From contig JAHJRN010000020.1 in the NCBI GenBank assembly GCA_018830865.1, positions 1-44,968 on the forward strand: DNA of 44,968 bases. The letters run 5' to 3'. Position 1 is the stretch's first letter; every line of letters begins with the position of its first letter. Of this stretch, positions 2,222 to 9,601 are shown one piece after another. Both the position numbers and the translations under genes were made by a program. The notes beneath the pieces were generated by a model. The model was given only the letters and a program-made list of their open reading frames with translations, was not told where the DNA came from and searched no databases. The DNA comes from Patescibacteria group bacterium (GTDB lineage Bacteria; Patescibacteriota; Patescibacteriia; 2-12-FULL-60-25).

Positions 2222-2866
2222 CTAGCGGCTCTTCTTTTTCGATGAGGCCGTCCGTCGGCTCCGGACATGCATGAAGACCAAAGCGCTCAAGATGGCGGCG
2301 AAGAAACACCAGACCGAGGGACCTGCGTTCGTATACACGGTGAACGCGACGGCGCAGGACGCCACGAGGGCGAGGCCGAACGTGACGATCCAGCGGGAAC
2401 TCGATAGGAGGCATACCAACGTCCCAACGCCGACGTAGAACAGGCCGTAGAGGGGATTGATCATGGGCACGCCGTACACGAGATGGCTGCAGGAAAGGAT
2501 GACCGGCGTCGGCGACAGGATGACGGCCACGAGGCCTGTCGTGCCGATGACCCAGCCGGCGATGACCAGCGGGAGCATCATCCGTCTCCGCATCGGCGAA
2601 GTTTCGGACATGCGGACGGCCCACGGGATGTAGGCCGGCCAGAACGCGTACGCGAACACGAGATACGACTTCACGAGGACATCGTTGAGTACGGTCCTGC
2701 CGAGCGTGAGCCAGACGACGCCTTCGACCGCCTGCTGCGCGGCGAAGATGAACGGCACGGAGGCGTATGCCCGCTCGCGTCCGTTCGGCGCCTCGAGAAG
2801 GCTTGCGGCCCCGATGGTCCCGATGGCGCCGCTCGCGATGAAACTAGCCGTCGCGGAAAAACACAT
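2222..2866 (-). CDS. DUF6629-like integral membrane protein
   Basis: A 214-residue polytopic membrane protein. It begins MCFSATASF, a start I associate with the DUF6629 family, which has no established function. About six or seven hydrophobic helices fill the chain, with conserved-looking aromatic and small residues in QQAVEGVVWL and PLYGLFYVGVG. The C-terminus is strongly basic (SRRTASSKKKSR) and probably cytoplasmic. It ends in TAG and converges on rlmN. The start is fixed by the family-typical N-terminus. No clear Shine-Dalgarno is seen. No substrate can be proposed from sequence. Confidence 0.7.
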   Translation of the reverse strand: MCFSATASFIASGAIGTIGAASLLEAPNGRERAYASVPFIFAAQQAVEGVVWLTLGRTVLNDVLVKSYLVFAYAFWPAYIPWAVRMSETSPMRRRMMLPLVIAGWVIGTTGLVAVILSPTPVILSCSHLVYGVPMINPLYGLFYVGVGTLVCLLSSSRWIVTFGLALVASCAVAFTVYTNAGPSVWCFFAAILSALVFMHVRSRRTASSKKKSR

Positions 2867-3009
2867 GCGGTGGCGCGGTCATGGATATAAAAATCGGGCT
2901 TCCGTCGTGCCCGGTGTCGTCGTTCCCTTCATTCATGTCGATAGTAGCACGGTGTGTCGGCGTGACCGAATCCCGCATGGACGTGTCGACCTGATATACT
3001 CGGAGGGAC

Positions 3010-3942
3010 ATGGAGGCTTTTTGGGCGTTCCCGTACCTCGGCGTCATCGCGTACGCCGCCTTTGTCTTGTCGTTGCTTTTCGTCTCGCGTCCGGCCTATC
3101 TCGCGTTCCGGAGACGGCACAGCGGATTCGGCGTCGTGTTCAACAGCGTGACGGGCATCCCGGAACCGCTCGTCTCGGTCCGGCTCCGCGATCTGCACGG
3201 GCAGGTCGTGGGGTCCGCGGTGACCGATCGCGCCGGGCGCTACCGCCTGCTCGCGCATCGAGGCGAATACCTCGTGGACGTGACGAAGGAGGGGTTCACG
3301 TTTCCGTCCGCGTATCTCGGCACGGGGCGTCGCAGTACGGTCTACGGCAATCTCCTGCCGGCGAAGCACGTCATCATCAAGGACCACGGGGTCATCACCA
3401 AGAACATCCCCATCGACCCTATCGCGGGACGACGGAGGTCGCGTGCGTTCGCGTGGCGGCCGCACATCGATACGAACGTGCAGGTCGCGGCAGGGACGCT
3501 CGGTCCGCTCGCGGCCTTCGCGCTCCCGTGGTTCCTGATGCGCGATTCCGTCGCAGGGTGGGTCGTCTTCGTCGGGTATGTCGGACTGTCGGTCAAGCGC
3601 CTGCTCTCGTTCAAGCCCGCGGCGCCGCCGTTCGGGACCGTCCGCGACGCGGGACAGGGGACGCCGGTCAGTCGTGCGGTCGTGCGCATCTTCGACGCGA
3701 AGAACAACAAGGTGCTCGAGACGCAGGTCACGTCCGAGAAGGGGCGCTACGCGTTCATCGTGCGGAAGGGCGCGTACTACGTGCTCGTGCAGGCCGAAGG
3801 ATACCGGACGGTCCGTCTCAATTTCCCGAACGTGAAAAAAGACGGGCACCTGCTCGTCACGGACGTCCGCCTCCATCGCCTCGGCTCATCCGAGAAAGAT
3901 CCGCTTATCGAGAAGTACGGAGGGATGAGCGTGCCGGACTAA
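3010..3942 (+). CDS. Membrane protein with two carboxypeptidase-regulatory-like domains
   Basis: A 310-residue protein. An N-terminal helix (about residues 5-27) is followed by a beta-sandwich of the carboxypeptidase-regulatory type (about 36-110; PLVSVRLRDLHGQVVGSAVT, DRAGRYRLLA, GEYLVDVTKEGF). A central pair of hydrophobic segments (about 160-200) comes next, and a second copy of the sandwich follows (about 212-285; TPVSRAVVRIFD, EKGRYAFIVRKGAYYVLVQ, EGYRTVRLNF). Such domains are usually structural or ligand-binding modules. Here they may sit on one side of the membrane on either side of a helical hairpin (inference). A TATACT -10 lies at 2995-3000 and GGAGGG sits just before the ATG. No known operon partner. 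Confidence 0.7.
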   Translation: MEAFWAFPYLGVIAYAAFVLSLLFVSRPAYLAFRRRHSGFGVVFNSVTGIPEPLVSVRLRDLHGQVVGSAVTDRAGRYRLLAHRGEYLVDVTKEGFTFPSAYLGTGRRSTVYGNLLPAKHVIIKDHGVITKNIPIDPIAGRRRSRAFAWRPHIDTNVQVAAGTLGPLAAFALPWFLMRDSVAGWVVFVGYVGLSVKRLLSFKPAAPPFGTVRDAGQGTPVSRAVVRIFDAKNNKVLETQVTSEKGRYAFIVRKGAYYVLVQAEGYRTVRLNFPNVKKDGHLLVTDVRLHRLGSSEKDPLIEKYGGMSVPD

Positions 3943-4679: not shown

Positions 4680-4821
4680 ATCCTCGACAGGATAGCATAA
4701 CGAAGAGGTTCCGATGACATCTGGACAATCCCGTTTTTTTCCGGCATGATCATCCCCATCCCACACCCGGCACCTCCCTTGGATGGGCGGTATTCCCGGG
4801 CGATTTGGGTTCGAGAATCCT

Positions 4822-7377
<2,556 letters not shown>

Positions 7378-7384
7378 ATAAACG

Positions 7385-7406
7385 GCCGACCAGAGGGGTC
7401 GGCTTT
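7385..7406 (+). terminator. Rho-independent terminator after uvrA
   Basis: Stem GCCGACC (7385-7391) and GGTCGGC (7397-7403) with a 5-nt loop, followed by TTT. It begins 8 nt after the uvrA stop and may also serve the convergent methyltransferase gene. Confidence 0.65.
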
Positions 7407-7431
7407 CGGTCGGGGGAAAGGGCTAGGCGAC

Positions 7432-8244
7432 TTAGTATCTGGCGACGAACAGCGTACAGCTGTTCGGGATGCGGAGGGGTCCGCTGTCCACGATGGTCTC
7501 GTCGATGTCGGAGACGATGCCGGAACGGATGTTGGCGTCCCAATACGTCTCCGCCGTGGCGTACGAGGCGACGAGATACTGGATGACGTCGTCACCGCTC
7601 GTGAAGACGAGTTCGTCCGGATAGAGATGGGCGATGACGTTCCCAAATTCCGTGAGGAGGAGATCCTTTGCGTTTTCTTGGCAGAAGGCGTTCTCCTTCG
7701 CGACGATGGCGGCGGCGAGCTTCGGTGCGTGGTCGTGCAGGATTCTCGCGAGATGACTCCCGCGTTGGCCTGTCCGACATGCCGCATAGAGCCTCGCGCG
7801 TGGTCGCATGACGCGGCGGATGTCCTTCAATGCGCTTCGGACGTCACGGACCTGCCGGAAGACATGCGTCGCGACGACGATGTCGAATGAGGCGTTTTCG
7901 CACGCGATGTATTCGGGGTCGAGGATGAGGCCCGAGACGCGGATATCCTGGTCGGTCATGGCCTTGAACGCCGCGACCACCGCATCGCGTGAGCGATCGG
8001 CGATGATGATGGCCCAGCTCTTCGGGATGCCCTTGGCGTTTTCCGACCAGAGCCTGCCCGTGCCGCATCCGAGGTGCAGGACGCTCGCTCCGCGCTTACG
8101 CTCGATGCGGTCGAACGCCTAGGTGTGCCATTCGATCGGGTTCGTCCCGATGAGGTCGTGGAGTCGGAATCGCGTTTCGAGACGCTCACGTTCGTTCCTG
8201 TGCCCGTTCCGTCCGTCTTCCGTGGTATGTGGAAGGTTCATCAT
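7432..8244 (-). pseudogene. Class I SAM methyltransferase interrupted by an in-frame amber codon
   Basis: Read from the ATG at 8244, the frame encodes 41 residues ending NPIEWHT, then TAG at 8121-8119. It then continues in the same frame AFDRIERKRGASVLHLGCGTGRLW to the natural stop. The downstream part has SAM motif I (HLGCGTG), an acidic post-motif strand (IIIADRS), FDIVVATHVFRQV and IRRVMRPRARLYAAC, typical of a methyltransferase domain. An ATG at 7980 exists but would remove motif I. The start is strongly marked: GAAGGAGCG directly precedes it, and TTGACG-N17-TACGCT lies upstream. In relatives as I recall them the interrupted position is usually Trp, and TGG to TAG is one substitution. This is either a recent nonsense mutation, stop-codon readthrough, or a sequencing/strain variant. 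The substrate is unknown. Confidence 0.75.
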
Positions 8245-8276
8245 CGCTCCTTCGTCATCTGGATGGATGAGGCTCC

Positions 8277-8337
8277 AGCGTAGGCGACGCCGTGGCATGC
8301 GTCAAGGATTGGCACGTCTCCCGTGTCGCGGTACGCT
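8277..8337. promoter_or_regulatory. Divergent promoters for the methyltransferase gene and uvrC
   Basis: On the minus strand, the -10 TACGCT (8277-8282) and -35 TTGACG (8300-8305) have 17-bp spacing. On the plus strand, the -35 TTGGCA (8309-8314) and -10 TACGCT (8332-8337) have 17-bp spacing. The uvrC -10 ends 7 nt before its ATG, which points to a leaderless transcript, whereas the methyltransferase mRNA has a ~30-nt leader with a Shine-Dalgarno. Confidence 0.65.
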
Positions 8338-8344
8338 ATCCCGC

Positions 8345-9601
8345 ATGGCGATTCCTGCCAGTATCAAGATCAAGAATGGCGTGCTTCCGGATGCTCCGGG
8401 GGTGTATTTGATGAAGGATGCGAAGGGGAAGGTCATCTATGTCGGAAAGGCATCCTCGCTCAAGCGGCGTGTCTCGTCGTATTTCCAGCGCCCGTCGGAT
8501 GATCGCATCAGCCAGATGGTCCGTGAGATTCGGCGCATCGATTACCTCGTGAAGCCGACGGCCATCGAGGCGCTTATCCTCGAGGCGAATCTCATCAAAC
8601 ACTACTTTCCGCCGTACAACATCAAGGATAAGGACAACAAGAGTTTCCTCTATCTCGTCATCACGAAGGAGGAATTCCCCAAGCCGCTCCTCGTCCGCGG
8701 TTCGGACCTCGGCGACGACGCGACGAATCGATATAAAGCCGTGTTCGGGCCGTATACTTCACCCCGGTCGCTCCGTGCGGCGCTCGACCTTATCCGCAAG
8801 GCGATTCCTTGGTCCATGTGCGAACCGGGCCAGCCGAAGCCCTGCTTCTACCGTCACCTGAACCTATGTCCCGGCGTGTGCGACGGCACCATCTCGAAGA
8901 AGGACTACGCCAAGATCATCCGCGACCTCATCCGGTTCTTCGACGGGAAGAAGGATGTCGTCATGAAAACATTCGTGCAGGAGATGCGGGTCGCGGCCAA
9001 GGAGAAGCGGTATGAAGATGCAGCGACGTTGCGCGACCGTATCCACGCACTCGAGCATATCCGCGACATCGCGGTTCTGAAGCGCGAGGACGACGACGTG
9101 GACCGTATCCGCGAGGGCGAGGCGCCAGTGGACCTGTACGGCCGCATCGAGGGGTACGACATCTCCAACATCTCCGGTACGTCATCTGTCGCGTCGATGG
9201 TCGTGTTCGAGGACGGCGCCCCGGTCAAACAGGAATACCGGACGTTCCGCATCCGGTCCGTCCCCGGCTCCAACGACGTCGCCTCCATCCGCGAGACACT
9301 GATGCGGCGGTTCCGCAACCCATGGCGCCATCCAGATCTTCTCCTCATCGACGGCGGGAAGCCGCAGGTCAACGCCGGCACGTCGGTCATCCGCGAGCTT
9401 GAGCTCGGCATCCCGGTCGTGGGCCTCGCGAAGGGACCGAAACGGAAGAAGGACGAGCTCGTCTGTGACAAGAACAACCTCGAGATCTGCATCGCGTGCG
9501 GGAAGAGCCTGCCGCTGCTCGTCGCCGTGCGCGACGAGGCGCACCGGTTCGCCGTCGCCTACCATCGTCGTCTGCGCGGACGGAAGATGCTTGAATCCTA
9601 A
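8345..9601 (+). CDS. uvrC: UvrABC excinuclease subunit C, short form lacking HhH domain
   Basis: The nuclease subunit of nucleotide excision repair, 418 residues where about 600 is usual. The N-terminal GIY-YIG nuclease that makes the 3' incision is present (GVYLMKDAKGKVIYVGKA, about 19-36). A UvrB-binding UVR motif lies at about 220-245 (KEKRYEDAATLRDRI). The RNase H-like nuclease for the 5' incision follows at once, with likely catalytic residues Asp272 (GYDISNISG), Asp336 (LIDGGK) and His400 (DEAHRF). The protein stops just after this, so the C-terminal double helix-hairpin-helix DNA-binding domain is absent, and the region between UVR and RNase H is also cut. Start 8345 follows a promoter by 7 nt. 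It is followed 12 nt later by glmS. Confidence 0.92.
   Translation: MAIPASIKIKNGVLPDAPGVYLMKDAKGKVIYVGKASSLKRRVSSYFQRPSDDRISQMVREIRRIDYLVKPTAIEALILEANLIKHYFPPYNIKDKDNKSFLYLVITKEEFPKPLLVRGSDLGDDATNRYKAVFGPYTSPRSLRAALDLIRKAIPWSMCEPGQPKPCFYRHLNLCPGVCDGTISKKDYAKIIRDLIRFFDGKKDVVMKTFVQEMRVAAKEKRYEDAATLRDRIHALEHIRDIAVLKREDDDVDRIREGEAPVDLYGRIEGYDISNISGTSSVASMVVFEDGAPVKQEYRTFRIRSVPGSNDVASIRETLMRRFRNPWRHPDLLLIDGGKPQVNAGTSVIRELELGIPVVGLAKGPKRKKDELVCDKNNLEICIACGKSLPLLVAVRDEAHRFAVAYHRRLRGRKMLES

Follow-up and report, generated by a model that had tools for sequence, protein, structure and literature searches.

In the pyrrolysine methyltransferases MtmB, MtbB and MttB, an in-frame UAG codon is conserved at one position. 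Reassignment of UGA (to Gly), CGA and CGG has been described in the Absconditabacteria, and the passages of that work available here do not mention reassignment of UAG in this group (PMC8629427). In-frame stop codons have been reported as widespread in bacteria and mostly short-lived; in the sections consulted, their sources are given as annotation artefacts, sequencing errors, pseudogenes and premature stops in functional genes, and many of them are argued not to be pseudogenes, a view that counts against the reading preferred below (PMC7918605). A literature search judged by titles and the beginnings of abstracts retrieved no paper on in-frame UAG genes in Patescibacteria.

The gene described here lies between uvrA and uvrC in the window (the whole stretch of DNA analysed, 44,968 nucleotides) and is interrupted by a single in-frame TAG. 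The best-supported explanation (probability of roughly 0.77) is that an accessory gene for a class I SAM-dependent methyltransferase lost its function recently, when a Trp codon was hit by one nonsense substitution.

The interrupted frame and its product

The frame at 8244-7432 of the minus strand consists of 271 codons, terminated by TAA at 7434-7432, and its sole internal stop is the TAG at 8121-8119 (Table 1). An original prediction, made from the letters of the window, had placed this codon inside an otherwise intact gene: the coordinates were right, one internal stop was found in 270 codons and no second disablement was detected within them, in line with its claim that no further decay was visible. 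The ribosome-binding site that it described was also present, but the “good promoter” was not recovered, a sigma-70 consensus scan (which covers one promoter type only) giving 0 promoter-like sites in 7300-8500. Tandem ATG codons at 8244 and 8241 are spaced 2 and 5 nt from GAAGGAG, respectively; because the latter spacing is better, ATG 8241 may be the true start rather than 8244. Two terminator-like sites were found in the region, versus 0.8 expected.

Table 1. Features of the interrupted methyltransferase gene and its flanks (positions in the window).
Feature	Position	Strand	Remarks
uvrA, flanking	4783..7377	+	
Terminator-like hairpin, then T-rich stretch, just 3' of the methyltransferase gene	7385..7403	-	
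Class I SAM-dependent methyltransferase, interrupted frame	7432..8244	-	270 codons + TAA; from homologue alignments and Pfam
First common-start ORF after the TAG	7432..7980	-	GTG start, 182 aa, without motif I
Downstream coding part, 228 codons	7435..8118	-	SAM motif I (HLGCGTG) and remaining methyltransferase fold
In-frame TAG, codon 42 of 270	8119..8121	-	Column is Trp in 9/9 core homologues
Upstream coding part, 41 codons	8122..8244	-	R25, L28 and W39 conserved
Ribosome-binding site GAAGGAG	8247..8253	-	
uvrC, flanking, divergent to the methyltransferase	8345..9601	+	

Of 5000 single-base shuffles of the part of the frame 3' of the TAG, 7 stayed open, and the codon-usage score of this part was 0.44, higher than in 123 of the 135 ORFs of 200-400 aa chosen for comparison. 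When the same 135 ORFs were read in wrong frames, the scores had a 95th percentile of 0.26 and a maximum of 0.57; codon usage by itself is therefore no proof of coding.

With the TAG read as one residue, the joined frame matched PF13649 (E 8.7e-12), together with PF08241, PF08242, PF01209 and other Pfam families. A structure model was built from a three-sequence alignment (pLDDT of 84.3 for the best of five models, 78.6 to 43.8 for the others) and was placed by Foldseek among class I methyltransferases (best match 5w7k, E 1.3e-13, 15% identity). The Rossmann-like fold and motif I (GxGxG) of class I SAM-dependent methyltransferases were recognized through Pfam, the model and Foldseek, and the identity proposed originally was upheld. 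Sequence alone matched no solved structure at E <= 1e-4. In the model, codon 42 belongs to a short helix spanning residues 39-44, which comes just before the first strand, beta-1 (54-59), and the SAM motif. Nothing useful was obtained from a motif-pattern search of the own genome, a single-protein search of the genome contigs, Rfam on the window or a search of viral contigs.

The proposed course of events would be a single substitution converting Trp codon 42 into TAG, after which ribosomes would stop and release a peptide of 41 residues; no ordinary restart codon occurs until past the SAM-binding motif, and no working enzyme would be expected. Restart 3' of the stop, giving a shortened protein, is very unlikely. 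Suitable codons are available in frame (GTG 7980 and ATG 7959, as well as CTG 8079 with GGAG 8 nt upstream), but the product from the GTG would lack motif I and strand beta-1 and, since this codon lies past motif I, would not be expected to bind SAM. Any restart, moreover, loses R25, L28, W39 and W42, and the CTG 8079 product would likewise be without the conserved N-terminal block.

Homologues and distribution of the gene

Full-length or near-full-length homologues came from a Patescibacteria MAG (G055), a Chloroflexi MAG and a genome of the same family (G025); from plasmids of Niallia, Lactobacillus johnsonii, Agrobacterium, Rhizobium and Microvirga; and from a faecal contig labelled as phage. 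The annotation of the Niallia homologue is MerR regulator, and MerR-type models match the N-terminal part of this protein; the N-terminal parts of the L. johnsonii and faecal proteins align with that of the Niallia protein.

In the core alignment (ten rows), the column of the TAG was occupied by Trp in all nine homologues, which answers the question, raised with the original prediction, of what relatives carry at codon 42; the stop accordingly lies inside the homology, at a position where relatives have a sense codon, as in a nonsense pseudogene. R25, L28, W39 and W42 were conserved in at least 90% of the ten core rows. The homologues do not start after the TAG and the block before it is conserved, so the upstream part is coding, as predicted; together with the Trp column, this block indicates that both sides of the TAG are coding. 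Trp also occupied the column in 11 of 14 homologues of a wider alignment, two of these 11 rows being near-identical Agrobacterium copies; of the other three, a Streptomyces protein had Ile there and two distant Patescibacteria proteins had a gap. Alignment rows were picked by similarity search: six of the six records from the first plasmid search were used, two of the five new records among the 11 from the second, and one of two phage records, the other spanning half of the query.

A single-protein search of 95 relatives gave matches in 28 at E <= 0.001, mostly to the SAM-binding half alone, and only G055 (E 8.4e-21) and G025 (E 5.5e-11) went beyond 1e-10. None of the 40 other genomes of the same family carried a close copy, the best match being that of G025 (27% identity, E 5.5e-11), and no second genome of the genus was present among the 95 relatives searched. 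Of 379 genomes from across the phylum, 3 (one of them the own genome) matched the family profile at E <= 1e-25. A class-wide search of 380 genomes with a two-row profile gave matches in 88 at E <= 1e-9, the best one beyond the own genome, G055 and G025 reaching 71 bits; these weaker matches are read as probable generic methyltransferases. One partial match from the class-wide search (G356) contained an internal TAA. A search of the 43 genomes around G386 at E <= 1e-50 gave nothing useful.

As for the locus, uvrA was located within about 1.5 kb upstream of uvrC at 12 of 29 other loci in the family, and was found in 8 of ten larger regions. Only one of these ten regions, that of G025, had a member of the methyltransferase family in the interval, likewise on the minus strand, and in the other nine the family profile gave nothing better than E 0.4. 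The own and G025 copies may be orthologues; they are about 26% identical, and the tree gives neither of them a firm place. On these comparisons, the methyltransferase gene is accessory and sporadic, and most relatives lack it. The length of the uvrA-uvrC interval varied between genomes of the same family (the G025 region is L225 4546-9407).

Elsewhere in the window, between 34001 and 44000, GC content dropped from about 0.6 to 0.51-0.56 and the long ORFs had low codon scores; four of them were tested and had no Pfam match. This segment is possibly an island of recent origin.

Decoding of UAG and isolation of the stop

UAG functions as an ordinary stop in this genome. Release factor 1 was present (451 bits vs. 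a curated cut-off of 423), and of the 282 ORFs in a 403-kb sample that were 150 aa or longer, 67 ended in TAG; UAG, UGA and UAA all terminated long ORFs there. This sample was made up of the window and a further 358,193 bases, together 35% of the 1,143,612-base assembly, and its ORFs were taken longest first, without overlap, some of them being false to judge by their low codon scores. A CUA anticodon was found in none of the 44 tRNAs detected over the Rfam cut-off, an incomplete set in which, for instance, no tRNA-Ser GCT was named; an amber suppressor, the search for which had been suggested, was thus absent from the detected set. Within the window, the genes for an SH3 protein, rsmH and murB end in TAG, which confirms three of the four examples pointed out originally, the fourth being a DUF6629 gene. 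The hallmarks of a UAG-reassigned code (a CUA tRNA with loss or weakening of RF1, and many genes with an in-frame UAG) were not observed, the 403-kb sample holding one TAG case under the relaxed screen described below. Global recoding, which the original prediction had already excluded, is ruled out by RF1, the TAG-ended ORFs and the tRNA set.

One apparent “tRNA-Pyl (cta)” with a 60-nt intron, called by ARAGORN in intron mode (L115), was rejected as a merger of two tandem tRNA-Arg genes: run without introns, the program called tRNA-Arg tct and cct separately at L115 8476-8628 (minus strand, contig C30). Intron mode applied to reversed and complemented sequences, as a control, gave 2 calls in 38 sequences. 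The tandem tRNA-Arg pair was low-scoring and both anticodons, tct and cct, are repeated elsewhere in the own genome.

Low-level readthrough of the amber codon, which would yield some full-length enzyme, is unlikely. The coding signal is kept on both sides of the TAG, as would be expected of a codon that is read through, and many bacterial in-frame stops have been argued to be tolerated, in the part of that study considered here (PMC7918605). Against this stand the presence of RF1 and the lack of a CUA tRNA among the 44 detected, a set from which such a tRNA might have been missed, as well as the alignments, in which none of the 14 homologues had a stop at this column; programmed readthrough, which implies a stop kept at one position across relatives, does not agree with the Trp of the core homologues. 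Near-cognate decoding of UAG is, in addition, expected to insert Gln or Tyr, not Trp.

The search for further in-frame stops was based on codon signal. A first screen passed 147 stops, 62 of them TAG, and was unspecific in this GC-rich genome; a stricter one passed 12 stops (1 TAG), and the methyltransferase site failed it on the upstream margin, a weak test in this case, the upstream side having 41 codons only and the codon-signal margin being 0.01 (strict) or 0.05 (relaxed). To pass the relaxed screen, a stop needed coding signal both before and after it, with the next 20 codons free of start codons. Two stops passed: the methyltransferase TAG, and a TGA that immediately precedes a distinct, pseudouridine-synthase-like gene (identified by eye from its translation). 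As this screen was loosened after the methyltransferase site had failed, it ranks the site and is no independent test of it. No second TAG case was found in the 403-kb sample under these relaxed conditions, and the methyltransferase TAG is isolated within that sample.

This isolation bears on the main rival, a sequencing or assembly error that put a wrong base into the assembly of an organism whose gene is intact. The assembly comprises 76 contigs (97.65% complete, 3.32% contamination) and the frame is otherwise open, both of which would agree with an error; the lack of a second case in 403 kb under the relaxed screen argues against it, and a deep consensus seldom contains isolated substitution errors. 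An error is accordingly considered improbable, though less so than readthrough or restart.

Interrupted relatives, age of the allele and known systems

Three of the 15 gathered rows contained an in-frame stop, in all cases TAG and in three different columns. The copy of G055 (L002 1375-2172, minus strand, JAHIRY010000024.1) has one in-frame TAG 32 codons further on, in a column that is Pro in 7 of 9 other rows, and its Trp in the column of codon 42 is intact. A conserved amber codon shared with G055 was therefore ruled out, by the different position, the intact Trp and the tRNAs of that genome (CUA anticodon in 0 of 44 detected). On 40 kb of its contig, 4 of 44 ORFs of at least 100 aa end in TAG, and the methyltransferase adjoins a RhuM-like gene (named by eye). 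The third case is a copy at 2465-3259 of the Microvirga lotononidis plasmid NZ_CP141049.1 (L110), whose TAG is codon 191 of the stretch used and corresponds to Gln in two close siblings. NZ_CP141049.1 is a complete plasmid record, for which PLSDB lists two features in all, none of them at 2465-3259.

Three TAGs at differing places fit repeated, independent loss of a dispensable gene; with three events, the count is too small to single out TAG. That the family tolerates or uses amber codons, its alleles being weakly expressed or phase-variable (off by nonsense, on by reversion), is highly improbable. If TAG-interrupted copies were truly in excess, this would suggest that an accessory gene is lost or switched repeatedly as selection changes.

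No branch of the family tree was longer than that of the window protein (2.77 changes per column vs. a median of 0.6), and this protein kept 18 of the 30 best-conserved positions; among the ten remaining core rows, the fraction kept was 0.77 to 1.00 in eight, 0.65 in Sphingomonas and 0.46 in G025. With the loosest threshold, the window protein was the lowest of all (33 of 70). The changed residues include a PGG motif that has become PRA. This fast protein change may be long-standing and not just recent, and the long branch could be explained by relaxed selection before the stop appeared or by fast evolution of the lineage.

The stop itself is judged recent because the 270 codons carry one disablement, the frame is open beyond what shuffling gives and codon usage is coding-like. 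The best reading remains a recent, isolated nonsense mutation whose allele is fixed or a strain polymorphism; we infer that this allele arose recently, no longer functions and has become fixed or common in the population that was sampled. The original prediction had offered a recent pseudogene, a strain polymorphism or a readthrough codon, and the analyses favour the first two; the three are ranked here on indirect evidence. For annotation, the case advises caution: where a gene of an assembled genome has a lone in-frame stop in place of a conserved residue, recoding is less likely than an error or a null allele of recent origin.

Compared with the pyrrolysine methyltransferases and their one conserved UAG site, this family has three TAGs in three columns. 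The locus shares a phylum-level group with the Absconditabacteria but differs in the codon affected, UAG, UGA and UAA all being stops here (PMC8629427, as far as its available passages go). It resembles the in-frame stop alleles surveyed previously in having a single stop with an open frame on both sides, although, by the portion of that survey consulted, only stops common to at least two genomes were kept, whereas the methyltransferase TAG comes from one genome (PMC7918605). In sequence, the gene resembles the class I family of Methyltransf_25 and Methyltransf_11, which has stand-alone and MerR-fused forms: homology is full-length to open frames of Niallia, Lactobacillus johnsonii and rhizobia, of the Chloroflexi MAG and of the phage-labelled faecal contig. 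Unlike these open-frame relatives, the window gene is cut by a TAG at a Trp that is invariant in the core alignment, and several of its other conserved residues are changed.
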